Shown: piece by piece, positions 30,303 to 63,926 of the stretch
How positions within the stretch are numbered: position 1 is the stretch's first letter
Layout of the letters: each line of letters starts with the position of its first letter
Assembly: GCA_037043015.1 (NCBI GenBank)
Contig: CM073322.1
Location: 7,327,601-7,391,600 of the forward strand
Direction of reading: 5' to 3'
Length of the DNA stretch: 64,000 nt
From: Bryum argenteum
Taxonomy: Eukaryota > Streptophyta > Bryopsida > Bryales > Bryaceae
Notes under the pieces: model-generated
Told to the model about the DNA's origin: nothing
The model's input: the letters and a program-made list of their open reading frames with translations, nothing else
Databases searched by the model: none
Translations under genes and position numbers: made by a program

Positions 30303-30511
30303 GCAGAGAGGCCCGAGTTTGAGCGCCGCCAGTGTTACTTCATTATGTGCCGGCGGACGTTATCACTTTGCCGCCGGGATGGGATCCGCCGGCACCTGAT
30401 GGGGTGAGTCGATATGTGTAGTGTCAATATTGTTGTTGCTAATCGCTCGAGGATGTTTGGCAATCGTTTATTTATACGCTTCTCCATTCGAATTACTGCT
30501 GACCCCTGCAG

Positions 30512-30986
30512 ATGATGATTATGGCGAACAAGGCACTGATCTGCACCGCTTGCGGAGAGACTATACCAAGCTTGGAGGAGGTCGATTATCATCCAGAGTT
30601 GAATGTTATAATGTGTGTGGGATGTGTGGCTTTCTTGCAGCACCGAATAGTGCGCCACACTCATGGACAGAAGCAAGTAAGAAAGTAGTGACATTCGTGT
30701 ATAGAAGTTGTGAAGCTATAGGTTATTTAATCTACCATAGTCGGTGTTGAGTAGGTGGTACTCTGTGTAGGCGGTGGAAATGGCTACATGCTCTTGGTGT
30801 GGACAGACTGAAGATCTCACCGAGTGTAGCTGCTGCGAATTAAGCTGGTGTGCGGCCTGCATCATTCGGAACTATGGTGACGACCGCATAGAAGGAGACA
30901 TGGTGGACGACATGTACTGGGCTTGCTTCCTTTGCAACCCGAAGCATATATCAGGGCTATTACTAGAAGCGGAATACAACAACTAA
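30512..30986 (+). CDS. stand-alone ADD (ATRX-DNMT3-DNMT3L type) zinc-finger protein
   Basis: Two exons, 30512-30675 and 30773-30986, join in frame (donor GTAAGA, acceptor TGTAG), giving about 125 residues. The first exon has a GATA-like half: CTACGE, YHPELNVIMC and CVGC give two C-x2-C pairs. The second has a PHD-like half: CSWCG, then C-x2-C, WCAAC, and WACFLCNP. Twelve cysteines in this order, with the YHP, IIRN and W-x-C-x2-C signatures, match the ADD domain that reads histone H3 tails (unmethylated K4, trimethylated K9) in ATRX and DNMT3. No helicase or methyltransferase region follows in the same frame. A 5-prime exon ending at 30403 (reading VITLPPGWDPPAPDG) may precede it, since a GTGAGT donor and a CTGCAG acceptor flank the gap. 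It lies tail-to-tail with the methyltransferase gene. Confidence 0.75.
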
Positions 30987-31581
30987 TACTAAAAGTGTAA
31001 TTGTGGGATTAGGGGCGAGGGCGGTGAGTGCTTCGACTGTGATTGCGGCTTAGTTTTCGCACTAGCCAAACGTGGCCTGCTCGGCAACTTTCCAACGTGA
31101 GTGGCGACTCGCAATTACGCATCAAGATGAAAGACATGAGGATCGGAACAATGGGAGCACCAGGACTAAGGAGATGGTGAGTGCCATCGTATCGCGAATG
31201 CAAATCTAGACGCGATGTTTTGCTTGCGAACTAGTAAGTGAGGACTACCATATTGTTTTAGCATTGAAGGTTTCATTACATTAAAAAAGTATGCGTTCGA
31301 AACCATGGGTCTCTAATCGTTTTCTAAATCACATCAGTAGCTGCATCTAATGCAAGTGATGAAATAATCCGATTTATCACATCCAGTGAATGGATATGAA
31401 CTTGATTGTGTAGTGCCTTTCTCCTAGATATGGACAACTTTGAACTTCGTCGCAACGGTTGCGGTATCATCACATGAAAGAGTGAGTTCATGAGTTAAAT
31501 TAACGCATGATTACAAGAGAATGAATATCAAAAATAGATATAGATATATATAATAATCAAAATACTCAAAACAAACTGTGC
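30987..31581. other. spacer between ADD and methyltransferase genes
   Basis: The two genes converge here, so this stretch should hold both 3-prime ends. No supported open frame, repeat array or RNA gene is visible. Composition is AT-rich near 31490-31570. Confidence 0.5.
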
Positions 31582-34500
31582 TCAGGAATCAGATTCTGAT
31601 GCACTCAAGTCTAAATAGCGCTTCACTCCAGGATCATATCTAGGAATCCTAACAATATCAGGTGAAGAGTCTGATGAAATAGTTGTATAAGCTTCTGCTA
31701 AGCCTTCCGCATATGTGGGAAGTGTGAACGATAACGGAGGGCTAATTTGAAGCTTGGAAAGTGTGTCAAATACACTCACTAAACTGCACAAGCAACCACA
31801 TAGCATTATAAGTAAATAATCAAAGTATGAATATGAAGAACTTCAATTATAGGTAGTGCGACTCACAGAATCCATCACGTTGTGCGGCTTGGATTGGTGA
31901 CTCGTCGCCGGTAGGCCCTGTGGTTGGCACAGATGGTGTGTCCAGGGATGGCACTGCTGGAATAGTAAGTGGCAGAAGCACCTCCTGGAAAATCTCACGG
32001 TCGCCCTCAAGTGCCAGAATGTTGCGGTGGAGGGAGAGCGCAGCCCGAACTGATGTACCTGCAAGTAAGAAACGAATGAAGTCAATCATGTAAATGTTGG
32101 AATAAAAAGCACATGTCATTGACTTAGGAACAACCTGTTGCTGTACCGAAGTCCATGACGAGTCCCTTCTCTGGACACATCCCATATATGAGTGGCTTGA
32201 AAAACAACTCCGTGCGCTGCTTTAGACCCCTCCATGGTTTCCTATCCGAGGTCTTGCGAAGAAGACTATGATCGTCGATTGCGTTGAATAGCATGTCCTC
32301 CTTATTGAGGTCAACACCGGGTGTAAACGGGTTGAGCTTAACAACGAGAGGAGTTGGTTGTCGTCGAGCACTAGGTGGAAGGGCCCTCACCATAACGATG
32401 GCCTTGGAGATGTATGTCTGCAAAAACAAACAAAAGTCTAGTAAGATAACACTATGCTATGCAGGCACCAACAATTAGTCCGCCAAGAAGAAGCGTCTCA
32501 GCACGAAGAAGCGTCTGCCGGCACCATCAGATGCACCAAGGCACCAGTGCGGCCAACAAGCTAGCACTGGTGAATAGAACGTCAGGCCAGCAGGCAGCCC
32601 CGGTCTGCCGGCCGAAAGTACGCTCTGCGGCAACGAAGTCGGGCCTGCCGGCGCCAACAACGTTCAGCCGAGACGATGAGGAGTCTGCCGGGACGATGGG
32701 GGGTCTGCCGGCACCGGCAGTGTGGGGGGTCTGCCGGCACCGGTATGCCAAAATACGAAGGCACTAGCAGCGGCACCATGAGGTCAACGCGGCAATAGCC
32801 ATGGATTGACAATTATCCAGGTACAAATACAAAGCCTTGAGAGAACATTATCATCGATTGCAAAGAACTTGAGTATCCAACAAACAAAATACAGAAAAAC
32901 ACAAATAACCATTGATCTTACCGATCGTGAAGGATCCGATGGGCTGCAAAGTGGAAGTGAGTTGAGAATTTTCCATTCCAGCGCAATCTTCAGGTTGAAA
33001 TTTGCAGTAAATGTCTCAATCTTCTTTCGCACGACATAAGAGTCCGGATAGAAGATCACAATTGCGCCGTCGTCGTGCAGGTACCTGAAGGCGAATTCAG
33101 CAATCGTCTTCAAAAACGTTGGTTGAAGAGAATTCCAGCGAGGAATCTGGTGCTCGGGATCGGACACTCCTGGAACTCGCATTCCATCTGGATAGTCTGC
33201 TAGCATCAAATCGACACCTGCTCGTCCTACTTCGAGTATACCTTCGAAATATAGGCGACGACCTATCGAAACCTGTAATTGAAATGATACAAGCCATTGT
33301 GAAAACTCAAGCAAGATACGCCTCAAAATAAAACATGGTTGGAATTGAACATGGTTCAAGGAGTACCTCGGTTAGGAACGACTTTGCATCATCGTACTCT
33401 TGAGGAAAAGGCTCCCCGACTGACTTCACGTCCCACCAGCGAATGAGGGTGTCGTTGATGATCTTGACTCGAGCGCCGCTGGAGTTTATTACGGGATGTA
33501 TGTCGAGCATCATTCCTCGAAGAGCAGGTGGGAGCATTGAATCAGATGCATTCGTGCTATCAATGTTGAATGGCGAAGATTTGACTCGAGGTAGAACTCG
33601 TTGTCTCTTGGCAAGCGGCATGGACCTTGTGGTCTCGTCGATGGTGTCTCCGAACAGGTCGATTGGAGAAGCTACGGGCAATGCATCTTCTTCATCTCCT
33701 TCCTGCAGATCGATCACATCTTTCAGTTGTGGCCGAGGATCGGTAGTCACTGGAACATCAGTCGGCGGCGTAACAATGGCGGGTGCAGCCTTCCGCTTGC
33801 GACGACTCCTCGAGTTCTCTGGCTGAGAGTCTGTTGGGACAATGGCTTTCTTGAGCTTCAAAAGCTCCGGCTCGATCCTTCCAAGCATTTCTTCTTCAAA
33901 CTCGGGGCATTGGCCCTTCTCCATGTCCATATACCATCCACATGCAGCATAGTGCTGCTTCTTAAAGTCCTTCAGCTGACTTGCGGTGTACATACACTTC
34001 TCATCGCTTGTGTTGGTGTAATTCACAAAGGATGTCGGTGTCTTCAAAATCGCCTTTTGTGGAAGTAACACGTGCTTCACGTAGCTGTAGAGAACCCGAG
34101 AAGTTGCCTTCTCAAAGTTTGGCTGCTTCTCGGGGGGGTTGTTTTTGTGCACACCTTTGCCTCCTCCTTCCTTGTCTTTAATGGAGAATTCTCTGTAGAA
34201 TGCAGTATCCGAGAGTGCGATACGCATCCGCTCGACATATTCTGTGACAGTGTCGATGGGCTCTTCAGCACCTGACGGATTGTAATTAACAACTTGTTTT
34301 GCCATGTCCATCTCGACATGAAACTCCTTGGCAACAGCAATTGAGAGCTGAACATCATAGAAATCAAATGTTAGTTGATATTTTCCTAACGGCGCATCCC
34401 TGAAATGCTTCAAGATCTCAACTACGCCATGAACACATCAACACTTGCCAGAGACTTGACAACTATGCCATCAATACATGAACACTTGTCAGAAACTTTT

Positions 34501-37500
34501 TGATTCAATTGTACGTACCTGCAACCACTAAGTCGCCTTGTTAAGGAAGCTAAGATATGCCTGCTCAGTGAACCCAACTTTTGGAAATCGTTGATTCTCA
34601 CGAAACTTGAACGACTTGTTCCACCGTTCCAACCACAGAAGCTTCGAGTCGATGTCCATGGCACTGGTTGCAAAATACCACAACTTTTCCTGCGACATCT
34701 CCACCTCACGAAATGTTTCGTAATGTTCCTTTACAAGCTCGAGGAACCTATTAGTGTTGTCCGGGTGGCAAATCGGTAATTGTTTCCGCAACTCGCTCAA
34801 AGTCGTGGATTTCTTCTCTTGAACTGCCTTGTTGACCGCATCATGAATTGTTGCCGCGGTAAACTTCCCTAAACCGGAATCACGCCTGAAATCAGTGGCA
34901 GCCTTCGCTGCAGCTTGAGCAAACTCAGTCTGTAAAAAAAACAACTATTAGGAAGAGCATGAATGTTGTCAACCAGATATATAAAAATACGAATCTCACC
35001 TGATACAGGACATTGCACAAAGCATTGATCGTGAGCTTATACCAAGTCGATTTGGTCATGTTCTTGAGATTGGAGGCAGATTCTTCCTCCGGGGTGATAA
35101 TTCCTTTGAAATATGAAACGTCCTGCCGCCCAATCCTTTGCACTCGGTAAAGCTTGTGCACCAAGTTAACCCTTAAGCGGGCCGAATGTCGAAAAACGAC
35201 ATTTTGGATGACAGAAACTTTGGAGAGCCATAACTTCTTCATCCGGACTCCGTTTTGGACGAAATCGCTTGGGTTGGGTCCCAAATCAAGTCTAGTTTAT
35301 GTCATAAAAATCTTAGACCCATACAATGAAGTATGAATTAATGGCATGCATTTTAGTGACAGCAGCCTAGTTTTAGACATTTTTTCCTTTGTAAAATTTA
35401 GGGCAGTTTTCACCAAAGGGGGCCATTATTTGCACAAAGAAATTTTTCTCATGGTTTTTTTTTGTTCAAGGATGCTACTGAGATGAAGGTGAACAACATT
35501 CTAATTGGTGACTTTTTCATTGCAATAAGTCTAACGGTAGCATTTTCACTTCAAAGTGAAAATGATGAAATTATGTGATCATTTTTGAGTATTAATACAT
35601 TATGATCTCGCAATCTATGAAGCCTCATGACTCAAAATTTGACCCACATGATGTTCAATATGTCTACGACAAGATTGTACGGTTGAGATTTGGATAACAC
35701 ACTTTTGCCTCCACCTATGACAATGTTTTTGAGGATGTGTTCATTTTACTACAAATGAGTCAAACCATTTAGGGGTTAAGTTGCACGTGGGAGTTTTCAT
35801 TTCTCCTGTGGGTAGTTCAAGTATAGCATCTCAGTTGACATATATTGACATGATGTCCTACATCAAGCAACCGATACAAGATTCAATTGCAAACGAAATG
35901 GAGCAATAGACCTTGAGGACTTGAGCTTACCAATTAATCTCGTGAAGGGCAGTCAATGCTGCCATGTTATCACCTTTTAACTCCAACAAAATGCAGTCGA
36001 CTTTGAAGTGCCACGCAAGATCGTTAGATTTCTCGGCATTGATGAATGGATACCAGACTTGCAGCCGGTGGTTTCCATCCCAAACATGAAACATCTTGTT
36101 GCTAAATTTCTGAAGGTCAGGGTCAGATTGTAAGAATTTCTCAAAATCATTGTTGACCTTCACCCAATTCTCGCTCCACGATGCAATGGTCTCGGGTAAC
36201 ACATCAACCGTCTTGACTCCATCCTTGACATCGTTCTCAACGGAGACATAAAACACACCTTGGCCTTCAACATAGCCAACGTCACGAAAATGGTCCTGGA
36301 GCCGCGCGATGTCAGACTTCATTGCCGGTCTCACAACTGGAAGGCCCACCAACCGACAAAGAGGAATGCACATGCGGGATTTGTGAACCGGTTGAAAGCG
36401 CAGCTGCTGAATCTTTGAGACGCTCACCGCAGCTTCTTGTGTGACAAGCTTGTTAACCTCCTTGGCAATATCTGCTTCTGACAAGACGTCACCTGCAGTA
36501 TCACCTTCTCCACGTTCTTCGTCAGGCTCTTCGAGAGCCGGAAACTCGACTTGCGCAACGGATGAATCATGCAGTTTTGAGGCATCATTAGTCACATGCT
36601 GCTCTCCACCTGCAAAATAGTTTAAAATCAAATCAGTTCATGCTAATATTTCCATGCTAATGGCACAATCAACCTTCTGAGGATCCTAGCAATAACAATC
36701 CACAGTTGATCGCTCCAAACTCATTTGATCCCCTCGAGTCGTCCTTGAGTGCCAGGGACAGGGCTTTCGATTCCATTAGCACGACCGGCACCACTGAGAA
36801 TGTGCCGGCACCATCAAGGTCAAGTTCCGCCGGCACCACACCATCAAGGTCAAGCTTGCACCGGGACAAGCTCCGCCGGCAACACACTTGCTCGGTGGTA
36901 CGCCGCCACACTTGCTCAAGGAGTACGCCGCAACACTAGCTCGGTGGGTACGCCGCCACATTTGCACTGGGAATACGTGTTCAGTTGCCACCAGAGAAGC
37001 ATCCGCCGGCGAAGATCATGGTCTGCCGGCACCATACATGCTCGGGGGGTACGCCGCTACACTTGTTCGGGGGTACGCCGCCACACTTGCTCGGATGAGT
37101 ACGCCTCCACACTCGGTCGGGGAGAATTCCGCCACTCCTGCTCGAAGGGTGCGCCGGCACCAGTACGTGATCAGCTACCTCCATCGAAGCATCCGCCGGC
37201 GACGAGCATGGTCTGCCGGCACCACACATGCTCGGGAGGTACGCCGCTACACTTGCTCGCGGGTACGCCGCCACACTTGCTCGGGTGAGTACGCCTCCAC
37301 ACTCGGTCGGGGAGAATTCCGCCACACCTGCTCGAAGGGTACGCCGGCACCGGTACGTGATCAGCTACCTCCATCGAAGCATCCGCCGGCGACGAGCATG
37401 GTCTGACGGCACCACATTTGCCCGGGGGGTACGTGTTCAGCTGCCTCCAGAGAAGCATCCGCCGGCGACGAGCATGGTCTGACGGCACCACACTTGCTCG

Positions 37501-40500
37501 AGGGGGTACGGAGCCACACTTGTTCGGCGTGTAAGCCGCAACACCTTCTCGGTGGGGTAAGCCTGTATTCAGCTGCGCAGAAGATGATCCGCCGCGACGA
37601 GGCCGTGGTCCTTTGGACGAGAATGAGATCCACCGGCACGGCAACGACTGATTGAAAGGGCGCTCGCTGGCACCAGGGCTTGTGGTGCCGGCACCACATC
37701 TTCCTCCAGGGAGGTACGCCGGCAATGTATCACGTTTTGCCGCCTCCACCAGGGGGGTCACCGGCATTGTGACTGGTGCACCCGAGTCAAGGTAAGCATC
37801 CGCCGGCACCGGAGCATGGTATGCCGGGGGTTGAAAGAGGTTCAGCCTAGGCAACATGAGCATCCGCCGGTTTGGGAGATTGGTATGACGGCACCGGAGA
37901 GGGCACTGCCGGCACCGGAGGAGCTACTGCCGGCACCGGTGGAGGGACTGCTGGCACCGGAGGGGGTACTGCCGGATCCGGAGGGGGTACTGCCGGCACC
38001 TAAGGAGGTACTGCCGGCACCGGAGAGGGCACTGCCGGCACCGCAGGAGGTACTGCCGGCACCGGTGGAGGGACTGCCGGCACCGGAGGGGGTACTGCCG
38101 GCTCCGGAGGGGGTACTGCCGGCACCTAAGGAGATACTGCCGGCACCGGAGGGGTTACTGCCGGCACCGGAGGGGGTACTGCCGGAACCGGAGGGGTACT
38201 GCCGGCACAGGAGGAGGAACTGCCGGCTCCGGGCCATGGTCTGCCGGCACCGGGCAGTACTTCAATACAAAGATTCGCCGACACAGTGATCGTGTATGCC
38301 GGCACCAGAAGGTGATCTGGGTCGAGAAAGTCATACTCCATTTTGACGCAGCCGCCAGTACATGTCGTTGAAATCCTCACCCCAGCGGAGTTCGAGTGTT
38401 GTCGTCTACCCCTGCCGGCCCCAAACGTGGATTCTGGAGCGAGACACTTACATCTTTGCTCAAGAAAAGTGTCTAGCTTACATTAGACTATGCTGCTGCT
38501 CGCTTGGATGGGGTGCCGAATACCTGCTTCTCCTAAGATTTCTCCTGCACCTAGTAGCTGAAGATGTGCGAGCATCTCACCCAGCCGGTCCCAGCATGAC
38601 TATAAAATTCACAAGAGATGATTGCACATTCTCACCCAGCCGGTCCCAGAAGAGAGAATAGAAACCGTGCTGCGGCTACATTGTGACCTCGCACCAAGAG
38701 AGAGGGACCTGATCGCACCATCCGGTATCACCCGCATTTGTCTGCCGGCACCAGATGGTAACGAGGCAGAAGCCTTAAAACTTGTCATCACTGCATTCCA
38801 GAAAAAAATCCACACCTCCAAATATTAGCAGTGACTCACTTAGATCAGAATGTCCTAGAAAATCTATGATCCTTGTCCGCACATGACGCCAAAATCATGC
38901 TTTCTTACGAATGTGCAAACAAATAAAAAAAACTCACATTGTCCTCACCTTATGAAGCCAATCCAAATGCCGCCAATATGTCGTTGAAATCTTCACCCCA
39001 GCGGAGTATGAGTGTTGGCTTCAGCCCCTGCCGGCCCCGAACGTGGATTCATGAGCTTGACACTCACTTTCTTCCTCAAGAAAAGTGTCTTGCTTCCGTT
39101 TGATTCTGCTGCTGCTCCCTTGGATGGGGTGCCGAATACCTCCTTCTCCTCAGCGAGCATCTACCCAGCCGGTCCAAGCCCGACCTAGAAGAGTGAATTG
39201 TAATCTTCACCCAGCGGAGTTTGAGTGCTGGCTTCAGCCCCTGCCGGCCCCGAACGTGGAATCATGAGCATGACACTCACTTTCTTCGTCAAGAAAAGTG
39301 TCTTGCTTCCGTTTGATTCCTCTGCTGCTCGCTTGCATGGGGTGCCGAATACCTCCTTCTCCTCAGCGAGCATCTACCCAGCCGGTCCAAGCCCGACCTT
39401 GAAGAGTGAACTGTAAAGCTGCCAATCTCGTTGACACTCCAACACAACTCAAGCGCATTATTAATGCTCATGGAGCGGCTCTCGAAGTTGGTTTCGTCAT
39501 GCTGCCCTCGTCGAATCACGAGCCCATCCCGAACAGACTCCAGCAGTGGAATTCGAAACATTCATATTACTTCACTGAAATGGTATTACATTCAACATTT
39601 GCAAAGCTGTGAAGTGGTATTACCTGTGCTTGTCGTTGCCGTGTCCGTGCGTGGCGTTCCCGTAGTAGCATTGGGATAAACCTCAATGCAAGCCTCGTCT
39701 CCGGATAGGTTGGGCGATTCGGGCGATGAATTTCCACCCGCAGAATTCTCTGACAGCGGAGGATCTTCATTTGCCAGTGATCTCTGAGTCATGGCTGCAC
39801 CTACAAAGACATCAACAGTATCGCAAGTAAATCGCGATTCCAAGGTGCAATATCAACTGTCAGATAGTCCACTCCAGATCACCATTCCCGGCCATGGCCA
39901 TAGCATCCAAATTCCAAATCCTGAGCAAGGCAATGAATCGAATGCAAGTAAAAGATCGCTGCGATGGCGGCATCAGCGGCAGCCTGAAGCTTCAAAGCAT
40001 TTGCCAGGTGCCGAATCAGAGCGACCAGAATGTGATAACTTCAGATTGACCGTTCTCAGACAAGCTATGGCCTTCGTTCTCGTCGCTATGGCCTTCGTCG
40101 ATTGATCGGTTGAAGATCTCAATTTCCATCACACGAATCGGTTCAAATTGAAATTCTAAGTATCTGGGCAAGAATCCCGACCGAAGTCGGTGGCGGCAGA
40201 GCAGGATCAGCGAGCATCCCGACCGAGGTCGGTGGCGGCGTAGCAGGTGGAGCAAGCATCACAACCGAAGTCGGTGGCGGTGAACAAGAATGAGCAAGCA
40301 TCCCGACCGAAGTCGGTGGCGGCGTACCAGGATGAGCGTCTTGCGCAGTCTGTGCAGATTGAATCGTTCAACTAGGGACCTCGATGCGCAGTGACAAAGC
40401 ACCAGCTTCAATGAGCGGCGAAGGTGCTGGCGTGAAGATCCGGCGGAGCAGCGGAGGTGCTAGCGTGATGATCCGGCGGAGGTGCGGGACGGCGGAGGTG

Positions 40501-43474: not shown

Positions 43475-43493
43475 GACGAATGCAGGGATGTCA
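43475..43493 (+). repeat. hAT left target duplication and inverted repeat
   Basis: GACGAATG (43475-43482) is followed by CAGGGATGTCA (43483-43493). A CCGGACGTC/GGACGTCCGTCCGG palindromic cluster follows at 43496-43541. Confidence 0.92.

Positions 43494-52456: not shown

Positions 52457-52460
<4 letters not shown>

Positions 52461-52549
<89 letters not shown>
52461..52549. repeat. (TA)n microsatellite
   Basis: An uninterrupted TA run of about 89 bp. Confidence 0.97.
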
Positions 52550-52551
<2 letters not shown>

Positions 52552-52599
52552 CCTAATTTTTATTTTAAAAAAATTGAAAAAAATTTTAAAAAAAAACGG

Positions 52600-52905
52600 C
52601 GCCGCCACATCGGCCGGCGTTGGTCGACCGGCATCGGTCGGCCGGCATCAGCGACGCGGCCACGATCGGCCGGCGACATCGGTCAGCGGCGCCACCGTCG
52701 GGCCGACGACCGCCACGACGGCCGCCCCGATCGGTCGACCGGATCGATCGCGACGATCGGTCGGCCGGGCCGCCGCCGCCAAGACGGCCGCGCCGTGATT
52801 GGCCGGCGCGACCGGCCGGCCAAGACATCGGTCGCGGCCGTGATTGATTGGCGACCGTCCGGGCGGCGGCGGTCTCTAGGGTTGGGAGGGAGGGGGATAA
52901 AGGCC
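52600..52905 (+). promoter_or_regulatory. GC-rich block and TATA-like box upstream of the RING-containing gene
   Basis: CGGCCGGC/GATCGGTC-rich text is followed by GGGGATAAAGG (52893-52903), about 195 bp before the ATG at 53097. Confidence 0.55.
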
Positions 52906-53096
52906 TTTGGGGCCTCATTTCCCCTCACTTCTCCTTGTATTCATCCATCTCAACCGAGCCGCAACCGTGGGCATTAGCTTCTCGTGTCTTTGCATTTGTG
53001 GTGGCGGGGAAGTCGGCGTGATACTTGCGGGCGTCACGATCGAATTTTTGCATACTTGGGATATCTTCGGGGTATTTTAAATACTCCCTATTCTTC

Positions 53097-56000
53097 ATGG
53101 CGACGGATATTGATAACACGAACATGGAGGCTGGTTCTGAACAGACCTTGAGGTCACCTGCGAAAGAAACCACAAACGCAGGATTGGTGGGGACTGAGTT
53201 GGTTTTACATGAGACACCGTCAAAGAGAGTGAAACCAAAAGGAGCGAGACATGAGTTGCACTATGATATCTTGGATAATGAGGCCATCAAAGCTGAGAGC
53301 GGTTGGGCCAATGAACCAGAGGAATACTGGAGAATGGCGACGTGCAAGAAATATGTGAAGATGTATCACATTGGGAAACTTTGGCCTCGAGAATGTCACA
53401 AAGTTAATACCAATAATTTTACTTGCAACCCTCAAACATGCAAGGATGATCACTTCCTTCATCGTGCTGAAGAAGTTAGGGTGGCATTGTTTTGAACTCG
53501 TCCCAAGAGCAAGGGTTATTTTTCATATACGCTCTTGAGCATGGTGTATGCTGAGCTCATATTGAAGCGCAAGGTGAACTGGAGCACATTCACGGCGAGT
53601 AGTGCATATCCTCTTCGAATCGGGAGAAATCAAAAGGATATCCCTGATAGGTTTGATCCAGAATCAAACTCTACAAAGGCCTTATTGCAGTACTTGAGGA
53701 GGAAAACTCATGAGACGGCGGAGAAGGAATCTCCTCCAACAACCACGACACATCAGGAGGATGGAAGGAATATGGTTGCTACGGATGCACCAATCGTAGA
53801 ACCAACTATAACTGATAGGCTCGAAGGTGCAAATGTAGTTGAAGAACCTCGTGAAACCCCGGTACCAACATCAGAGGAGGCAGGGCCAAGTGAACCACGG
53901 GAAACCAGAGCACCAACTTCTCCCATGGATGACATGGATCCCGATTGGGGTGCGGCGCCAATGTTCGAGAGGTATATGCGTTATCAAGTAGCGGATAACA
54001 CATTGGATGAGTGGATGAAAAAAGCAAAAAGTTTGGCAGATTGGTGCAATGAGGTAGATAAAGAGGCCGGTTTGCCAGGGAATCATTGGGGAGATGCTTC
54101 GGTTGAAATGGTAACTTGTCTAGGGTTCAACTTGAAGATGGGGTCAGAAATACTTGCGGATATGGCTCCTCGTTTTGTGGAGATGGCTCACACTTTTGCA
54201 GGTATCACGCCCAACGTTCTACGAGCTGCCATAAATTTTGAGGCACTCGTAGATAAGTTTGATCCTCTAATAAAGGACCGAGTGAAGACTCGAGAAATTC
54301 ATTTTGAAACCGGAGAAACAACAAAGAAATTACGCAACGTCTCCTTGACGAGTTCTACAGGGAATTGCGGTTGTTTGGCCAAGGTTCTGCTAGCAAGTAT
54401 GAGGCAAAGTACCAAGAAGCAATGCGCCAAAAGGATGCGGTAGAAGACTTAGAAGATGACCGATTCGCCTATGTTCAATCACAGAATGACACTCAGGGGG
54501 CTTCATGTAGTCATGTTGTTCCAGAATGTGATGCGGGTGGTAAAGACGATGGTAAAGAGGATGGTGAAAAGGATGGTAATAAAGATAAGGGGAAGACTAT
54601 TATCGGGACTTCTGATAGTCTTTTTCTTTCACAAATTGATGGGGGTGGTAAAGAGGATGGTGAAGAAGAGAAGAGAAAGACGTATATCAGGGATTTATCT
54701 CCTCTCAAAGAGGTTAGTGAAGAGGATGGTAAAGAAGATAAGGGAAAAACCATTATCGAAATAGACGATGATGACGATGATGAAATTCGGGGGGAATTGA
54801 AGTTAATATCACAAAAGGAGATAGATGATGCACAGATTGAGCGACAACGAGCATGGGCGATGGAGTTCGCAAGACTCAAGAAGGAGAGAGATGTTACGAT
54901 TGCGAAAATTGGAGGAGGAAGCAAAAGCATGCTCAATGAAGTTGGAGGCTACAAGTAAAGAGAGAGATGAGGCGATCGGCTGAATTGGAGGCATTACGGA
55001 AAACCTTCAAAACGGTAGATTCTACGAGGCGGCAAATCCACCTTCACCTATGCATACTACCATGGTTGGGATGGGTTCATCGACTTCAAGATAAGAGGAG
55101 CTTGGTTTCGAGAGCAAAAGAAGATCTGAAATCGATTGCATCTACATCAAAGGAATCACGTGAAGTTGTAGATGCTTCATTGGAGAAGTTCGTTAAGAAC
55201 GGATCGAAAAAACGATATGACCCCATAGAGGTCACTTTTTGGGGGGATATTGAAGAGATGATGGAGCGTACAAACTACTCTAAGATGGGACGAAACAATG
55301 ATGTTGATTGGACTATGGAGATAGAGGAAGGATGGGCGCCGTATAGTAGATTCTCATCGCACCTCCAAGAGTCAGCTCGCATAGTAATCAACACATGCGA
55401 CCCTCCTCCCGCAATACTTAAAGACAAATGTGCGGTGTGCCTACATAATTTTGGTCCGGAGGGCGCATACACGTTAGGCCAATGTGGCCATAACTTTCAT
55501 GTTACTTGCATATGCCGATATGCGATGACAAAATCGGTATGTCCAGTATGTTGCTCTCCATTTAGCACGAGATTCTACGAGATGATGGGCATTCGAGATC
55601 TTATGCCACCAGGGCACGAGTTCAACCGATGGAATCTTCCATTGGATCAATACCCGAAGAAATTTCTAAACTACTCTGATTGGGGAAATGCTCTTACCGA
55701 GTACATCCGAATCAAAACACCAACTAGCCATTCAATTTGGTGGGGATCATGATCAGTTATTTTGGATGACACGAGATTACGAAATAGAGATCAGGGCGAG
55801 GAATATTGAAGGTGATGAGCAACGAGAGTTGTTTTGTCGTAATTTCGGAGGGCATTGGAGCGTCGAACACAACCGTTTCTTTTGATTTCCTCCAAAGAAA
55901 GTGGAAAAGGGAGAAGATGGTTCGTGGCACGAAATAACCGATTCAACAGGCTTTGGTGAGGAGTACAATAAGTACGATCATACTCCAATTGGAAGAGCTC

Positions 56001-56413
56001 ACGGTACTCGAAAATTGGAGGAGGCCGCAATATACCGGATTTCGATACCGGAAAATTCTTTTGAAGATGTGGAGGTCTCTTATTGGGATGCGGTGAAGAA
56101 GTTTGATACGCGTATCGATGACGCCATTACATTTTGGAGAGAATGTCTTTTAAACCCAAAAGACACACAACTTCTATTATTGGATGAGTTTGAAGGTGTT
56201 GTACAGGTGTCATTGCAAAGATCGAGAAGGCCATGGAAATCTTACGTAACAAACAAGTGGATCCGAGCAAAAAGCGGAAGAGGCAATCGGGCGACGATGG
56301 GGAGGATAGTTGGCGGCGGTATGAGAGGCGAAATCGCGGCGGTGGATCGAGAGTATGAAGAGGGCGGTCGAATTGCCCGTCCAAGTCAAAGACCGCGTAC
56401 TCGCAGCCAGTAG
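53097..56413 (+). pseudogene. RING-H2 finger gene of the hAT element, frame-shifted
   Basis: The start is ATG 53097 (MATDIDNTNMEAGSEQ). The N-terminal part has CKKYVKMYHIGKLWPRE and CKDDHFLHRAEE, homologous to the 47641 gene. Then come a Pro/Glu/Thr-rich segment, an acidic Lys/Asp/Gly region (54520-54790), a coiled coil (RLKKERD onward), and a RING-H2 finger at about 55429-55557: CAVC, CGHNFHVTC, CPVC. A C-terminal region with WHEITDSTGFGEEYN and FWRECLLNPKD follows. The whole would be about 1100 residues. Frame changes are needed near 53490, 54325, 54950, 55000-55080, 55745 and 56210, and an in-frame TGA lies at 55883-55885. RING-H2 fingers are typical of E3 ubiquitin ligases; that role is inferred. 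The many single-base shifts could partly be consensus errors. Confidence 0.55.
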
Positions 56414-56476
56414 CTCGAGTTGGCCAATCGGATGGATCTTGATTTGAAGTTAGAACGGATGTTGGACCTTAAGTTC

Positions 56477-56609
<133 letters not shown>

Positions 56610-56937
56610 TTTTTAGATTGTATGGTTGTTGTTTTAAAAATGATACAAATGCCACCATTGATCCATGGGGCCTTATTTTTGAAGTAAAGGGTTACAATCT
56701 TTTTGATTTAATGTGCATTTCTTTTGTATGCTTGAGACAATTGAGAGTGAAGACTATCGTACGACAAGTATGTAAAAATATATGTAATATTTTTCAAAAC
56801 ATTAAATGCAGTCATGTAGACAATAGAATCTCCAAATGCATTTGGAGTATAACAATAAAGTACTACAGTTTACTATAACTACAATTTCTATAATAAGTAT
56901 AAGTCCTATGAACCTATACTACATAAAGATGCCAAAT

Positions 56938-59530
56938 TCAACTACTCATCGCACCGGAGGATTGCTCATAATCGCTATCTCCCTTCACTTCAGCTCCACT
57001 GGATCCCATAGGATCATATTCATAATCGCTTGGAACCTCCTCTTTGATCTTGGGTTTATTCTCTGGACATTGTATATTCCCATACTTATGCCAAGTATCA
57101 AATTCGGGGAGATTAACAGGGATCTTCGTTTTTTTAGGCGGAACAATTGGAATCACATTGCGATTTCCGTTTATGCGACTTGGAAGTGCCAAGCATGTGC
57201 TGTAACCCCGTGGCAGTACGAAGAACATTGGCATTCTTTAAATACCTGCCCAACGGTACATCAGAGTCACTAGAGATGCTCCCATATTTGGCTCTTGAAA
57301 GGGATACTAAACCCTTAGACGATTTCTCCAAGGTTGTCGTAACCCTTGTAGTAGAGGGTTGAAATAAAGCGCGGGGAGTAGCACATTGATCAGATACTTG
57401 ATCCTTACTACCGGATGCAATATTCTCCGCGACCGGATCAGAGCTCATAGTGCCCGCAGTTGTGTTGCACGCAGTGGTCTTCGCATCTATCGCCTCCTTT
57501 TCCAACCGTAAACCAGTAGCGATAACAGGTAGGACGTTATTTGATTTGTCCATGCCGCCTTGTGTCATTAACCGGCTAACGGTCTCATCATCTAGATCAT
57601 CCATTTGAAAGACCATGAGCGATAAAATCACCATTACCATCATGAACATTTGGAGCATCTTCATCATTTGAAGCGGGAAGAAAGTCATATCATTATCTTC
57701 ATCGCCAAATTCAAAAACATCATTGTCATCGACTCGATTCGTCCTCGATGACTTCCTCATCATTCTCATGTACTTGGTCTTCCTCTAAATCCAAGTTCTC
57801 TCTATACCACCCCCATCATCACTCAACTTATCATTCGCGAGCAATTTCGAGTTGGAATATATGTAGACCAAGTCATCAGCTCTGCCCGGTAGTAACCGAT
57901 TCCGTTTCTTGTTGTGAACATAAGAGTAGCTACTCCAGTTGCGTTCGCAAGCTGACGAGGACACGGTCTGTGCTAGTATTCGCTTTGCAATTGGAGAGAG
58001 GAGCTTAGCACAAGCACCTTCAAACTCCCACCATGCATGTGGAGCTAGTTTTTGAGTATTAGGCTCCAACATGTCATGGAATGGTGGACCCCTTACTCGA
58101 AACGCAAGAAATTCACTCACCACGTCTGCATAATCCTCCGCGGGACATAATTTTTGTAAAACACGCTTGGAAGCGATTGTAAGATCGGGATCGTCAGCTA
58201 ACTCTTGGTCGTGTAGTAAATAAGGATTTAAAAGTGCAGCCGCGCCATGTAAATCCGTTGTCATGAGCCGTTTCCGATGGTAAAACTCCTCTTTTGCGGT
58301 GGCCACCTCAAGTGGTTCCAATGAGATGGGCGGTGCGTGCAAAGTATGGACATGTCTCTCAAGATCACACATAATATGCCATGCCTTGCCCGTACTAGGA
58401 GCCTTGCCGTCGAATTCTCTCAGAGCGTACACCACGGGGGCAACCATATCCCGTAGTCTTTTGCATTGCTTCCAAAACTCATCGCTCAACACCACCTTCT
58501 TGACCTTACGTGAGAATTTAAGCTTATCTCTAGCAGATACCGTCTTCTTCGAGGCATAGGCTGTGAACATAGGGTCGACAACAACTTGCTCCAATGATTC
58601 CTTGACCTCCAACAAGGGATCTATCATTATGAATTGACTAGCAAATCTTGTTTTCCCGGGCATCAGGAGGCTGAATTTCGCCTCGTGTTTACGAACCACA
58701 GCTAGGGGCATTTGTCGCCTCTTGATAAACTTGACCATTTTCTTCGCCATGACCAAAGTATTCGCCATCCATCCAGCCTTTCACCCTTGCATGAAAATGT
58801 GCGGATATTTCTCAAGGACTATTCTTGAGGCATTGAGCATTACAGAAGCATTATCTGTGCATACTTGAACAATGTTCTCTGGTCCAACTTCTTCTATGTA
58901 CTTCAACATGAGAGTTGACATGTACACCGCTGTTTTTTCTTGGCCAGTAGTATCAACAGCACCAAGAAAAAGCTCTCCGGCTTGAGTCACGAGCATCACA
59001 TACACCAAAGGGCGACTAGTCACAGATAACCATCCATCCATAGTCAAAGTTCCTCCAAACTTCCGAAGGCTCTCAGAGAGTCTACTATCTAGTTTCTTTT
59101 GTAACTCCGTCTTTACTTCTCCTAACAACCTTGTCCGAATGTGTAGGATGGTGGAGCATAGGATTTTCAAATCCCTTGATCTTCATCACTAGACTTTGAA
59201 CGCATCATTGCGGGCTCATGAGAATGGTATATTTGCTTCGTAAAAAATTTCGCCCGAGTTTATCCAACTCCCGCCTATCCGCTTCGCAAAAGTAGCTTCA
59301 ATTGAAGATTGCTTCGTTTGCTTCATAGATCCAAACATCGGGCGAGTATCCCTTATTCCCCTCATATGCATGGAAGAAGCGAGGTTGACCCTACCAAAAG
59401 ATTTGTTGAATTCATGGGGGTGCCTAGCGAGGACCCTACACAAGAGTCACTCCTAGGGGTTTCGGGAATGTCATGTTTTGAAGCACTGAACGTCCGTGGA
59501 TGGAGTGAGAGAACATTCACCGAGAAATAG
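56938..59530 (-). pseudogene. hAT transposase with DUF659 and hATC regions, mutated
   Basis: Reading leftward, 59443-59216 has KQSSIEATFAKRIGGSW. 59170-58781 is a DUF659 region with MDGW and CTDNASVM, in the positions of the first two catalytic Asp of hAT RNase-H folds. 58768-57785 continues with the helical core and the hATC dimerisation region (SSSACERNWSSYSYVHNKKRNRL, split here at the Glu of ACERNWS). A C-terminal extension (57769-56938) is acidic and Ser/Thr-rich. An in-frame TGA lies at 58783-58781. The AHxL-type motif expected just there seems missing, suggesting a small deletion. Frame changes lie near 57780 and 57150. The N-terminal zinc finger is not readable. A TATATAAG box lies at about 59988-59995 and the GC-rich block at 60065-60300. 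The protein would cut and join hAT ends; this copy is unlikely to. Confidence 0.82.
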
Positions 59531-59987
59531 TTCCAATTCTCCGTTATATGGAGGGAACTCCCACCACATCTTAAAAATAACTCGCCTAATTTCCCTAGGC
59601 GACTTTGGGCAAAGGGCGAACTCGAATCCCTATGTCCAGAATCTTCTCGTACCCATAATGACTCAAATTCCGACTCTTCTTCTTGAAACAATTACACGAC
59701 ATAGTGAGCACTTTGTAGGAAGGACCCAGACGCTTTGCCTTCCTTCTCGATGTCTCTAAACCAAGGCTCATGTGGAGCAGGGCCCATTTTGATAAATAGG
59801 ACGCTTCAAATTCTTAAATAATGGTGGGACCGTGACGGGGAAAAAATTGGCAAGAGTTCCTTACGGAAATCCTCACTTCCGAACTCAATACCTACCAAGC
59901 AATGTACACATAAAATGAATTATGTGGCTCATAGCTCTTGGAAAGTGTTCAAAATTCGGAAGTGAAATGAGACTCAATGTGTCTTCT

Positions 59988-60300
59988 CTTATATACCATC
60001 CAACTCCGAATATGACCGTTGCAATTTGAAGTTGAAATGCTCCTAAACCGTTGGATGCTCAAAAGGCCATCCGCCGCGTTGGCGGGATGTAGGATGCGAG
60101 GGCGGTCGCGATGGCCGACGGCGGTCGCCGGACCGACGGCGGGTCGCCGAGGCCGACGGCGGTCGCCGGGCCGACGGCGGACCTGGCCGAAGGCCGGTCA
60201 CCATGGCGACGACGCCGCCGGCCGCCGCCAGCGGACCGGCCGGTCGGGCCGACGGAGAGGTCGGGGACCGGTCGACGGGGTGGTTCGACCAATGAACGCA
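59988..60300 (-). promoter_or_regulatory. GC-rich block and TATA box upstream of the hAT transposase
   Basis: On the minus strand CGGCGGCCGG/CGACGGCGG-rich text (60300-60065) is followed by TATATAAGAGAAGAC (about 59995-59981). The order and spacing match the blocks at the other element genes. Confidence 0.6.
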
Positions 60301-60405
60301 CCCCGTTGGTCATTTACCCTTGGTAAAACGACCAGATTTTCTAAGTCACGGACGGTCCCTGACCCCTGCCGGACGTCCGCCGGACGTCCAGACGTCTGGA
60401 CGCTG

Positions 60406-60424
60406 TGACATCCCTAGACGAATG
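60406..60424 (-). repeat. hAT right inverted repeat and target duplication
   Basis: TGACATCCCTA (60406-60416) is followed by GACGAATG (60417-60424). GGACGTCC/CAGACGTCTGG palindromic words lie just inside, mirroring the left end. Confidence 0.92.
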
Positions 60425-62519
60425 CAACCTGGAGGGAAGTTGCAAAATGCCTGGGTGATGTTTGATCACGTCAAGCGCATCAAACGCTACACAACGTTTG
60501 CATGCCACGTGTACGAGCCGAAGTACCGCAAAGTGATGACGATTGCAATCTGCGACATGATGTCCGAAACTCAAGATGCACAGTCTTACCTTTCGAGAGG
60601 AATCAATGCTGTCATGGCTGAGCATGGGGTTCACAACGTCAACTTTGCCGGCTTTATGGCAGACAGTGCGCAAGCTAACTGGAATGCTGTTCGGGAAATC
60701 TACGGTTCAGGTGATAAATCCGTACCAATGCCAAATAAGGAGCGTTCCTGTCTCCTACATTGGACTACTTGTATGCAGAGAGCAACAAACTGTTATATTA
60801 AGCCTGAACTCCGAGACGAGCACAAGCGAATGTGCACTCAGTGGAAGGATGCGCGTACAGCTGATGAAGCCGAATCGCAATGCATGGCGATTCGTTCATG
60901 GTGGTCTACAAGCGGAGCAGCCAGCGACTCGGACATCCACGCACTCGACAACTGGTTAGCGTGGTGTCACTTTCGATATTGGCAATGGGGCGGATACATG
61001 GACATGGTATTTGCCATACGCATTTCTTTTTCTCGTATTCCTGTTGTATTTATTCCGTAATCAAAGCCCCATGCGAATTCTGTTTGAGTGCTTCTACTGA
61101 AACTATTGATCTTCATGTTCAGGAGCTCACAGAGGACCAAAGAGCAGAGATGCCTATGTGCAATCTGTCAGAGACTGTCCATGCATCATGGAGCAAGCAG
61201 TCCGGTAAACTCTGTGATAATATTTTTGAGGCTACCATCGAAGACTACTGTCGTGCATTCGTTCAATGCACCAGGTACAATGCATTCGATAAAGGTCGTG
61301 GATCGGGTACTGGTCCAACTCTCGAAGAATTGCGCTTCCGTGCTGCTACCCGCTCTGCTTCGAAGAGCGGAAATTTAAAATCAGTTTACCGCGCAATGGA
61401 TCTTGTACCTGGGGCGGATGAATTTCTCGTTGGCAGGGCATCGTATGCAGGGGAAGAAGTGTTCGGATCCGCAAAACGAAGGCTTGATTCCGAACCAGGT
61501 GGCGAAAACGACTCTCACAGGTTTGACAAGGTGAACTTCTCGCAGCCAAAGACCATGAGGACACAGCAGCAAGGATCTCCCTCCACACCGATTCATCTGG
61601 ATGCTAACGAAGACGACAATGACGACGTCCAAGTTGTGATGGAGACAAGTCCGGTTCATGCTCGCGAGGGTGTGCAGCACGTCACAAAGGTTTTGGAGCT
61701 TGAATGCTCACCAAAGATGTGGCACATTCGCCGAATGCCTTCAGTGGGAACGAGGATATGTACAGCCATGATCCCGGACTCGAACAAGAAGTGCAATCAC
61801 GGGCTTCGAAATGGAGAACCTGCTCCAGCCTACCACGGCGTGAAGCACGTTCGCGCCAAGAACAAAAACTATGCGCAGTTCTTTTATTTCTGTGCAGACA
61901 ATGCTGTAGGGTGCGTAGCAGGAAAAAGACGTCGATGGTTCCCTGATTCGCCAAAGGTGCCACAAATTTGGCCAGTGCAAAAGGGAACTAACCTCACGAC
62001 GCGGGAGATCTTGACCTTAGAAGAAGCAGGATTTCAGTTGCAACAAAAACCACCTACGCCGACCGAGAGGCAGTTTGGAAATGATCTCGCCATCGCAGCC
62101 AGTATTGCGAACATTCCTGCACCGGAAAAACCCGACAAATTCCTCAATATAAGAAGCTCTCGCCCTTGTCGTCGCAACGTTACAAAGAAGGTCGCCGCTG
62201 AGCAGTTGAACAAGTGGGAATCTGCAATGTTACTCGACGTCGTCTTAACTCGCATTATGTTGGTGCCAAGCCCCGGACTCGGGGCTGTGATTGATATTAT
62301 ATCCAAGAAGGGTCCTGAGAAGGATGCTCAAAAGTACAAGGTGAGCATTGGTACATTTCCAGAGTGCACTTGCCCCAGCTTTAAGAGCATGTATATTCAG
62401 TTCAAATCGCGTAAATCGTACGGAAACTGCAAGCACATTTACTACATCTATCGTGTGGTTGTGGTCTCGACCGAGAGAGAGATCGGTTTGTACACGCCCC
62501 GACATTGAGCTTCAACGAG

Positions 62520-62574
62520 ATCAAGCGACTTCTCCTCAACGGAATTATCCAGCGCATTCCAAACACCTAGGAAT
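62520..62574 (+). other. possible terminal exon of the SWIM gene, first copy
   Basis: In the third frame the sequence reads LSFNEIKRLLLNGIIQRIP and then a stop at 62569-62571. A diverged copy with the same pattern occurs at about 63859-63926. The main frame ends at 62508, one frame away, so this would need splicing or a frame change. Confidence 0.4.
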
Positions 62575-63000
62575 TACGACGTCTATAGTCTGCTTTATGT
62601 AGTCTGCATTATGCTCCTAGACATTGAAGTACAAGCCATTTCTGCATGAGACATAATATGTAGTCTTAGATCTATGATCTGGTCAGCTTGAATGCGTACC
62701 TTCACCTGCTAAACTATTTCTCAACCTTACCAGAGGTGACATCACATATTTATATTTATACATGCGTTTTTGTTCCGTGATACATACATGTGAATTTAGT
62801 TCCAAACAACTTCCACACACCGTAGAACAAAGATCTCTCTTGCATGATGCTAGTGTTGCTGAGTTTAGACCCTTTGACATCGGGAGTGCGATGAAGCCAC
62901 CAGTAAGTGTGACGGCGTACCCACTTCTTTTGTGCCGGTCCTACTATAGGGCTTGTGAACGATATCCAGGGGTGCGCCGGCGCCGGCAGCCCCCTTCGGG
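62575..63000. other. spacer after the SWIM gene
   Basis: AT-rich text without a supported gene. A short open frame from 62762 has no recognisable motif and runs into the following minisatellite. Confidence 0.45.
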
Positions 63001-63640
63001 TGCCGGCGGACGTTTTGCTAGGGCCAGCTGATGCCCTTCTAGTGCTGGCGGAACTCTGCCTCTAGCGTACCGTTGCTCTCACCAGTGAACCTCTGCTGGT
63101 GCCGGTGGACCTCTGCTGGTGCCGGCATACCCCATATTGTGTCGGCGCACACTTTTTGCTCGCCGCCCGAACCTTTCTTTTGGTGCGCGCGAGCGTTTTC
63201 GCTCGTGCCGGCATACCACATCCGGAGGCGGTGCCGGCGGCGGCCACTTGCCTCTAGCATATCATTGCTGGCGCCGGCCAACCCATGCAGGTGCCGGCGG
63301 ACCTCCCGTGGTGCCGGCATACTCCCTCTGGAGGGGGTCTGCCGGCACACCTGCCCCTACCGTATCGTTGCCGGCGCCGGCGAACCCCTGCAGTGCCGGC
63401 AGACCTGAGGAGGTGCCGGCAGACCTGAGGAGGTGCCGGCAGACCTGAGGAGGTGCCGGCAGACCTGAGGAGGTGCCGGCAGACCTGAAGAGGTGCCGGC
63501 AGACCTGAGAAGATGCCGGCAGATCTAAGGAGGTGCCAACAGACCTGAGGTGTGCTGCCCACGGACACTTCACTTTTGCGTACCATTGCTCACGCCGGCG
63601 AACCCCTTCTGGTACCGGCGGACCCCTACCTCTAGATGCC
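62970..63640. repeat. GCCGGC minisatellites near the right edge
   Basis: From 62970 GTGCCGGCGGAC words occur irregularly. At about 63395-63560 there is a regular 20-bp array (GGTGCCGGCAGACCTGAGGA) of about eight copies. The words match those in the introns of the methyltransferase gene. Confidence 0.9.
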
Positions 63641-63858
63641 CATGCTCGTGCAGAAGGACCCCTGGTGGTTCCGGCGTAACTGTCATTGTTCTCGCGGGCG
63701 CTCCGTGATGCTAGCAGGTCCCTCCTTGCACTTGGTGTTTGTGGGCTTGGAGCCTTGTTGTGCCGGCGGAAGCCTTCTTGCTGCACGCAGACCCCTCGTA
63801 GTATGGAACTCCCTGAACTATAGGATGCTACCGCTGACGTGCTGAACCGCGTAACGAC

Positions 63859-63926
63859 TCTTAGCTTCAACGCGATCAAGCGACTTCTACTAGGTGGATT
63901 TATCTACCGTGTTCCGCGCGCTTGAT
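63859..63926 (+). other. possible terminal exon of the SWIM gene, second copy
   Basis: The frame LSFNAIKRLLLGGFIYRVPRA is preceded by an AG acceptor-like ACTCTTAG and ends in TGA at 63924-63926. It parallels 62520-62574 and suggests duplication of the last exon or of the element end. Confidence 0.4.

Follow-up and report, generated by a model that had tools for sequence, protein, structure and literature searches.

ParB-methyltransferase genes are already known from algal transposons. Sola1-1_Ec32 of Ectocarpus carries one as an accessory gene (1104 aa) opposite to its transposase, and in the sections of the source drawn on here the protein is proposed to attach to, and to modify, the transposon encoding it (PMC12477816); the same sections cite further examples from DNA transposons of green and red algae. 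VANC21, the accessory protein of an Arabidopsis VANDAL element, which is a Mutator-like element (MULE), is described in the relevant part of PMC5735166 as binding arrays of short, uniformly oriented motifs that lie in introns and further noncoding regions of the element encoding it. In fungal DNA transposons, TET/JBP genes likewise place a DNA-modification enzyme beside the transposase, although these are dioxygenases acting on 5mC and belong to other transposase groups, as far as the excerpt of PMC12730594 extends. The bdelloid rotifer protein N4CMT contains a bacterial-type N6_N4 methyltransferase domain, deposits 4mC at transposons and requires its SPPY motif for catalysis, according to the sections used of PMC8885841. 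In prokaryotes, the combination of a ParB-CTPase fold with PF01555 is enriched in phages, as stated in the excerpted part of PMC12704722.

The locus described here lies in a window of 64,000 nucleotides of the Bryum argenteum genome and extends the ParB-methyltransferase genes of transposons from Sola-1 to a Mutator-like element. As in Sola1-1_Ec32, the gene opposite the transposase combines ParB-like and N4C/N6A-type methyltransferase parts (about 1,260 aa here), a likeness drawn from the partial description of that element and not from its sequence. Sola1-1_Ec32 is described there as a Sola-1 element of 21.5 kb from a brown alga, whereas here the transposase is IS256/MULE-like, the target-site duplications measure 9-10 bp and the genome is of plant type. 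Beyond the Ectocarpus case, each gene has at least 150 matches in this genome, the selection signal is quantified and an oriented palindromic repeat is confined to the family. With VANDAL/VANC the locus shares the MULE type and an accessory protein; the oriented family-confined repeat occupies introns and the 3' arm, and its binding is putative. VANC, however, is an anti-silencing factor leading to methylation loss, and the consulted part of PMC5735166 names no methyltransferase domain for it. N4CMT is encoded by the host and has a chromodomain and SPPY, whereas the present gene belongs to a transposon, has an altered motif IV and, in the pieces that were scanned, matched no chromodomain. The phage fusions, as excerpted, are prokaryotic with a recognised ParB fold, in contrast to a multi-exon eukaryotic gene with ParB resemblance at motif level only. 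Among the entries listed, no ParB-methyltransferase in a Mutator-like element was found in the literature searched, which was open-access only and hence gives no proof of absence.

The stretch contains a damaged member of an abundant group of large DNA transposons with two genes and of the Mutator (MULE/IS256-like) type, an anatomy that we consider nearly certain by our own estimate. The whole copy comprises 38,276 bp including a hAT insert, and its right end lies 4.2 kb beyond the window; the limits of 30303 and 63925 proposed in an earlier note on this DNA have to be replaced by those in Table 1. The termini are CAGGATTGCAG on the left and CACCGTAATCACATTG on the right, and 67 of 87 aligned bases of the terminal inverted repeats are identical between the two ends (alignment score 38 versus a shuffled maximum of 10). 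Imperfect repeats of about 90 bp were found in all five copies analyzed, with scores of 33-38 versus shuffled maxima of 10-15. The left break occurs at the identical base in four copies. Target-site duplications of 10, 10, 10 and 9 bp were detected in four of the five copies with both ends examined and none in the fifth, c1. According to the section used of PMC6446971, MULEs generate duplications of 8-11 bp; the duplications observed here fall within this range, and the terminal inverted repeats are also those of a MULE. None of 4227 Rfam families reached its gathering score within the window.

Table 1. Positions of the element, its two genes, the hAT insert and the minisatellite in window coordinates
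Feature	Position	Strand	Remarks
Mutator-like element, window part	29886..64000		whole copy 29886-68161 = C2:7357486-7395761
Target-site duplication GACAGTATAA, left copy	29876..29885		perfect 10 bp; right copy directly after 68161
Left terminal inverted repeat with GTGAGC subterminal repeats	29886..29975	+	from alignment to right end
Methyltransferase-like gene	31847..41577	-	10 proposed exons, predicted by means of splice sites and homology
Proposed exons 1-5	41577-41296, 41220-41136, 39800-39624, 36609-35931, 35267-35000	-	
Proposed exons 6-10	34929-34519, 34407-33367, 33272-32922, 32417-32135, 32058-31847	-	
Exon with ParB-like region, motif VWDGNHRLQ	35931..36609	-	motif level only
Motif IV exon, LADYPDG instead of canonical DPPY	32922..33272	-	from alignment
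Motif I exons, DFGTATGTS	31847..32417	-	PF01555 match region
Intron with oriented minisatellite	36610..39623	-	33 of the element's 66 GCCGGC sites
Intron with minisatellite	32418..32921	-	5 GCCGGC sites
Region between divergent start codons	41578..42009		432 bp; starts at 41577 (-) and 42010 (+)
N-terminal transposase half (former 'ADD' gene)	42010..43482	+	contains a Cys/His zinc cluster and two in-frame stops
hAT target-site duplication GACGAATG, left copy	43475..43482		8 bp; right copy 60417-60424
Unrelated hAT transposon inside transposase gene	43483..60416		16,934 bp; ends CAGGGATGTCA / TGACATCCCTA
hAT transposase pieces	57785..59182	-	Dimer_Tnp_hAT (2e-12), DUF659 (3.4e-25)
C-terminal part of same transposase gene (former 'SWIM transposase')	60417..62508	+	rest of DDE core, then SWIM motif
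Minisatellite array downstream of transposase	62900..63900	+	13 GTGCCGGC sites in 500-bp bin from 63000

In the intact design, one arm of the element encodes a transposase of about 1,200 aa with a zinc cluster, an RNase-H core and a SWIM motif, and two other copies harbor the uninterrupted frame (1193 and 1222 aa). In the window copy, a hAT element later inserted into this gene and divided it. As is the rule for hAT elements, the insert is flanked by an 8-bp target-site duplication; it also carries short terminal inverted repeats and a hAT dimerisation domain. Of 40 scored full matches to its left end (the window's own included), 35 start at base 1, and the insert is absent from all six other element copies compared. 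The element thus holds two divergent genes, not the three of the earlier note, whose first and third genes are the halves of one transposase gene around the hAT insert. The region of about 430 bp that the note had placed between two divergent genes was confirmed. The first of its genes had been read as an ADD protein, giving the element its own chromatin reader, and the dense, conserved Cys/His cluster in the N-terminal half does resemble a zinc reader at a glance. However, Pfam scans, run with E limits of 1 for window pieces, 10 for a 931-aa piece of copy c10 and 0.5 for 36 relatives, revealed no ADD match; the cluster forms the N-terminus of the transposase in uninterrupted copies, and the hAT boundaries are exact. 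A three-gene element with an ADD reader therefore has practically no probability.

The SWIM-type C-x-C...C-x-H motif reported for the third gene is present from position 62362 onward, scoring 13.6 bits in Pfam, below the cut-off of 19.6, while its status as a separate gene was lost; the 931-aa piece of c10 gave no Pfam SWIM match. As neither this piece (E up to 10) nor 36 relatives in set A1 (E up to 0.5) matched any Pfam family, MULE included, the MULE assignment rests on structure, target-site duplication, terminal inverted repeats and the SWIM motif. The DDE core is related to IS256, as in MULEs, and resembles the ISCth4 transposase, with low global TM-scores (0.13/0.27). The ISCth4-like core, the duplication length and the SWIM motif together point to a Mutator-like element. 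The search of a 5.8-billion sequence set recovered 77 transposase relatives, and a scan of viral_contigs with set A1 gave 132 pattern matches, none of which was confirmed. Sequence searches of the PDB yielded no relative. The SWIM domain had first suggested a KDZ/Zisupton transposase, an identity set aside on the basis of profile searches: no KDZ profile matched, and the IS256-like core and the 9-10-bp duplications suit Mutator better.

The opposite arm encodes the methyltransferase-like protein of about 1,260 aa, as judged from an exon model in which two of the splice sites are weak or deviate from the standard (a GC donor in exon 1 and a GTTGTT donor in exon 9). The sixth exon contains one in-frame stop, so this gene copy is probably broken. 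A bacterial-style methyltransferase-like gene with a ParB-like part, as claimed earlier, is borne out by a GNHR motif and by the order of the methyltransferase motifs. The ParB/sulfiredoxin fold is marked by a GxHR-type motif, and GNHR is invariant in all seven aligned rows. The domain is called ParB-like solely from this motif: profiles of Pfam, PHROG and NCBIfam gave no ParB match and PDB sequences none either, and a low-confidence structure model (pLDDT 44.6) had no structural match at E 0.001, with sulfiredoxin appearing at E 4-6 among unrelated rows. Motif IV precedes motif I, as is characteristic of beta-class amino-methyltransferases. The canonical catalytic motif IV is (D/N/S)PP(Y/F). 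In its place all nine copies aligned at this motif, as well as P0078, a metagenomic relative, have D-[YLI]-P-[DE]; the protein is therefore named methyltransferase-like and not a member of the N6_N4 DNA methyltransferases. All five spliced domains that include motif I match PF01555 (E 8.5e-6 to 7.8e-4; 19.9-26.3 bits, all under the cut-off of 26.7), while single exons alone and P0078, in which the motif I part is absent, gave no match. An NCBIfam search of the protein returned nothing. At E 0.01, the spliced protein had no relatives in the 5.8-billion set, which may reflect a length filter, and a query with the fused exon 7-8 frame had two.

Both genes occur repeatedly in the genome, and the gene match lists hold the best 150 of 748, 1078 and 898 candidates. 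Among the matches listed, 149 methyltransferase matches (of 150, one at a contig start being left out) form 46 divergent pairs with the transposase, compared with a null mean of 2.1 and a maximum of 9, some contig extents being taken from the last match. Counted from the transposase, 66 of the first 110 of the best 150 matches show the divergent layout, versus 1.8 by chance and a maximum of 7, with an assumed extent for C9. For 95 of the 149 methyltransferase matches no transposase match was listed within 30 kb, and eight more are paired in another orientation. Two separate adjacent transposons, one Mutator-like and one methyltransferase-bearing, might be considered from copy c3b, a mosaic with arms of different affinity: across five exon sets its methyltransferase gene differs little from that of c10 (dS 0.31-0.86), while its transposase is close to that of the window copy (dS 0.39-0.46, versus 1.17-1.32 to c10). 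This indicates that arms are exchangeable between copies. Separate transposons are refuted for the window copy, c2b, c3a and c3b, where one pair of ends and one target duplication enclose both genes, and with pairing far above chance this explanation is hardly credible. The exact ends and duplications, the repeated divergent pairs and the selection on both genes bear out the claim of one mobile element with a transposase and a DNA-methyltransferase-like gene.

Bounded transposase copies excluding the methyltransferase, which the earlier note had named as counter-evidence, were absent. Among the matches listed (52 methyltransferase and 46 transposase matches used), none of 17 copies bounded by both ends holds the transposase alone; seven hold both genes, one the methyltransferase only and nine neither. 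For this count, 5 of 41 left-end and 10 of 42 right-end rows were left out as short of the terminus or as fragments of listed rows; the full match tables, read by eye, add no further match in copies scored without a gene. The nine empty copies would also suit a methyltransferase-like gene captured from host or bacteria as cargo without a role, and additional ORFs are described as common in MULEs in the part used of PMC6446971. Cargo is nevertheless very improbable given the shared divergent layout, the retention of the gene in copies whose methyltransferase identities span 32-100% and whose divergence is correlated, and strong purifying selection comparable with that acting on the transposase. 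The dN/dS analysis covered 9 of 21 copy pairs, with dS saturated or zero in 12 of 63 rows; the close pair of window copy and c4 gave 0.23-0.48. Judged from these sequence comparisons, the gene is very probably a selected accessory gene kept across diverged subfamilies.

Whether it encodes an active N-methyltransferase is rather doubtful from the motifs, as the altered motif IV suggests that catalysis may be lost. The protein could instead be a non-methylating, DNA-binding pseudo-enzyme whose SAM-like fold and ParB-like part support the transposase structurally, for instance during the pairing of ends or during integration. The aromatic residue and the first proline of DPPY are gone in all nine aligned copies and P0078, the motif IV exon is still under high constraint (dN/dS 0.02-0.06 where dS is computable and >0.25), and mudrB is described in the section used of PMC6446971 as a second protein apparently needed for integration. 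On the other hand, the D-x-x-[AT]-A-T-G core of motif I is kept in L044 and near copies, and PF01555 matches mainly there, as would be expected of a SAM-binding enzyme. The pseudo-enzyme is a tentative alternative to which we give somewhat less than even weight.

The single minisatellite family said to link the region was found on both sides of the gene pair. This oriented repeat with the palindromic core TGCCGGCA marks the element family: 93 of 100 places listed (out of 111) lie in the family, versus 1.3 by chance and a maximum of 5. The right arm holds 24 GCCGGC sites, part of them in the downstream array. In c10 GCCGGC is enriched 4.6-fold only, the palindromes enriched in L043-L047 do not include it, and no array was seen within 5.5 kb at L044. 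The minisatellite may be passenger DNA. A GGCACGCCGGGGCTC array of c10 was rejected as a subfamily marker since all 27 occurrences lie at that one locus.

The best overall explanation, which we regard as probable, is a damaged two-gene Mutator-like copy whose accessory methyltransferase-like gene has been retained and would act on the element's own DNA. For this last action alone, the chances appear evenly balanced. Most likely the oriented repeat of the introns and 3' arm would be bound by the N-terminal domain, with the C-terminal domain modifying, or at least contacting, the repeat-bearing DNA. The element might thereby be kept active or recognised as own, by analogy with VANC proteins in VANDAL MULEs. 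An unlikely extension is a self-addressing epigenetic transposon, in which the ParB-like methyltransferase would recognise the family's oriented TGCCGGCA arrays, load and mark or shield the element, so that host silencing is avoided or the transposase guided. Protein and repeat would then diverge together from one subfamily to the next, in the manner of VANC and its motifs, and motif IV in its altered form would reflect modified or non-methylating chemistry.

Transposons with their own DNA-modifying or DNA-reading proteins provide a direct route to studying how mobile DNA escapes silencing. For this family, a single genome supplies at least 150 matches per gene, a selected accessory gene, a candidate recognition sequence that is family-confined in the places listed, and the naturally recombined copy c3b. 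The methyltransferase-like gene of the family may serve to mark the DNA of the element itself or to protect it.

The locus, in a window at C2:7327601-7391600, is a single copy of a large DNA transposon, with a second, unrelated transposon nested inside it. Pairwise alignment of the window to six other copies and inspection of the break points placed the left end at 29886, and the right end lies at 68161, 4.2 kb beyond the window. The two termini form imperfect inverted repeats some 90 bp long, identical at 67 of 87 aligned positions, and their alignment score of 38 compares with a maximum of 10 for shuffled sequences. The window copy is flanked by the perfect 10-bp duplication GACAGTATAA. Duplications of 10 bp (copies c2b and c3a) and 9 bp (c3b) were found elsewhere in the family; none was detected at c1 despite the presence of both ends, and no left end was found for c4 or c10. 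Remnants of CACTA/En-Spm-type transposase genes lie to the left of the element, with matches to Transposase_21 (4e-57), DUF4218 (1.6e-34 and 5.8e-35) and, below the cut-off, DUF4216 (1.3e-5).

The supposed ADD and SWIM genes, which an earlier note had treated as separate, are the two halves of one transposase gene that was split by a hAT insert. The supposed ADD gene stops at 43482 and the supposed SWIM gene restarts at 60417. The intervening segment contains pieces of a hAT transposase, and its left end is repeated across the genome: of the 40 full matches scored, one of them the window's own, 35 begin at base 1. The reading frame runs on when the flanks are joined at a single copy of GACGAATG; the insert is absent from six other copies, all of which align across the site. 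A single open frame covers both halves in c10 (1193 aa) and c1 (1222 aa). The window transposase carries two in-frame stops, and some of the aligned copies are open throughout the transposase parts. The proposal of a separate chromatin reader is withdrawn. The insert also contains a kinase-like ORF (Pkinase 1.4e-5, below the cut-off) and a RING-H2 ORF (zf-RING_2 2.1e-7), possibly hAT cargo or nested pieces.

The union of transposase and methyltransferase-like gene in one mobile element, also part of that proposal, is borne out by divergent pairing in excess of chance and by bounded copies containing both genes. Across the 258.8 Mb searched (25 contigs), 46 of the 149 methyltransferase matches listed form divergent pairs within 30 kb (null mean 2.1, maximum 9). 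When the ParB-like exon is used, divergent pairing is seen for 66 of the first 110 listed transposase matches (null mean 1.8, maximum 7). Pairing is still seen at identities of 32-37% for the methyltransferase and 53-56% for the transposase, and the two identities are correlated (Spearman 0.91, n=46 pairs). Among the matches listed, the 17 copies with both ends harbor both genes (7), the methyltransferase alone (1) or neither (9), and a bounded copy with the transposase alone was sought and not found. One element measures 50.9 kb across. Another 8 methyltransferase matches are paired in a different orientation, and 95 of the 149 have no listed transposase match within 30 kb, which may be explained in part by partners beyond the matches listed, by decay of copies and by insertions nested within them. 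The family appears to be concentrated on contig C1 (44.1 of 258.8 Mb), on which 81 of the 150 ParB-like exon matches listed fall. In a compact subfamily of 14 copies (transposase identity 63-69%), the ParB-like exon lies 2.7-2.9 kb from the transposase, and no methyltransferase part was found among the matches listed. Another group, six copies of 11.4-13.0 kb, has the same two ends without either gene among the matches listed and is probably a non-autonomous derivative.

Coordinates of features in the window and of related copies elsewhere in the genome
Feature	Location	Details
hAT insert	window, between 43482 and 60417	16,934 bp; ends CAGGGATGTCA / TGACATCCCTA; 8-bp flanking repeat GACGAATG
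Kinase-like ORF	window 44853-45719	
RING-H2 ORF	window 54940-55752	
CACTA/En-Spm-type remnants	window 26902-29661, 10604-12295	
GACATCTTAGACATT-type arrays	window 7164-7738, 8586-8715, 12510-12647, 18977-21131	
Compact subfamily, examples	C1:17877830/17880702, C1:3297407/3300274, C2:34348370/34351302	
Short copies without either gene	C7:4995744-5007143, C1:7870079-7881962, C2:13189272-13201360, C4:16424401-16436768, C5:2218700-2231446, C1:43849200-43862169	
GC-rich array of c10	C10:4225285-4231440	several kb

The methyltransferase-like gene, on the minus strand, is modelled with ten exons and has one in-frame stop in the window copy; the exon layout is repeated in other copies as far as they are covered. 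The ParB label was given because of a GNHR motif in exon 4, invariant in 7/7 aligned sequences; profiles, PDB and fold comparison (from a low-confidence model, pLDDT 44.6) gave no support for it. In all five spliced copies that contain motif I, the last exons matched PF01555 below the curated cut-off, with E values of 8.5e-6 to 7.8e-4. Neither single exons alone nor the metagenomic relative P0078, which is without the motif I part, matched this profile. A weak match (0.0016) was obtained to PHROG DNA methyltransferases. Motif IV precedes motif I, the order of beta-class enzymes. It reads AD[YLI]P[DE] in all nine copies aligned there and in P0078, and therefore differs from the SPPY motif, catalytic in the rotifer N4CMT (PMC8885841), in having no tyrosine. 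With its altered motif IV, the protein is thus a putative enzyme that may or may not be catalytically active.

In copy pairs with computable dS above 0.25, dN/dS ranged over 0.02-0.06 in the motif IV exon, 0.01-0.14 in exons 4, 6 and 7, and 0.14-0.35 in exons 9-10; the transposase gave 0.07-0.16. Several distant pairs had saturated dS. The very close pair of window copy and c4 gave 0.23-0.48, which might reflect post-insertion decay of the copies or small counts. Copy c3b is a mosaic, its methyltransferase gene being of the c10 type and its transposase of the window type; thus the arms have recombined.

The minisatellite family noted earlier is real and, among the places listed, restricted to the element family. 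A genome-wide count gave 111 occurrences of GGTGCCGGCAGACC and none of its reversed control. Of 100 places listed, 93 lie less than 12 kb from a family gene match (null mean 1.3, maximum 5); one of the remaining seven is inside a bounded copy (C5:22012303-22034868) and six are 5-9 kb from family ends. The strand agrees with the nearest gene at 83 of the 93, and the other 10 flank a transposase match on the side where the methyltransferase gene lies, with the strand that this gene would predict. GCCGGC is the top over-represented palindromic hexamer in the window copy, c2b and c3b, with 66 sites in the window element versus 4.3 expected; enrichment is 4.6-fold in c10, and the hexamer is not among the enriched palindromes of the loci L043-L047. 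Among 8-mers, the palindrome TGCCGGCA is the most frequent, accounting for 141 of 307 sites across five copies. In the window element, 62 of the 66 GCCGGC sites fall within two methyltransferase-gene introns or downstream of the transposase; coding exons and the left arm have two each. Intronic or upstream arrays of different sequence occur in the diverged subfamilies L043, L045 and L040, and no array was seen in the part of L044 examined. A 15-mer of the GC-rich tandem array in c10 (L038-L040) is restricted to one locus genome-wide (27/27). The left half of the window contains recurring arrays of GACATCTTAGACATT or GATGTCTAAxTT-like units, mostly of 12 or 33 bp, which are unlike the TGCCGGCA repeat.

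VANC21 of the MULE VANDAL21 is described in PMC5735166 as binding, within its own element, arrays of short, same-orientation motifs that lie in introns and elsewhere outside the coding sequence. The oriented repeat found here likewise occupies introns and the 3' arm, and is a candidate binding site. By analogy, and as an argument rather than a proof, this likeness would favor a self-addressing protein. A ParB-methyltransferase gene in a DNA transposon is of a kind already known, as PMC12477816 indicates. Within the open-access literature searched, and as far as these searches show, the Mutator-type carrier, the plant-type host, the selection signal, the exchange of arms and the family-confined, oriented palindromic repeat are new.
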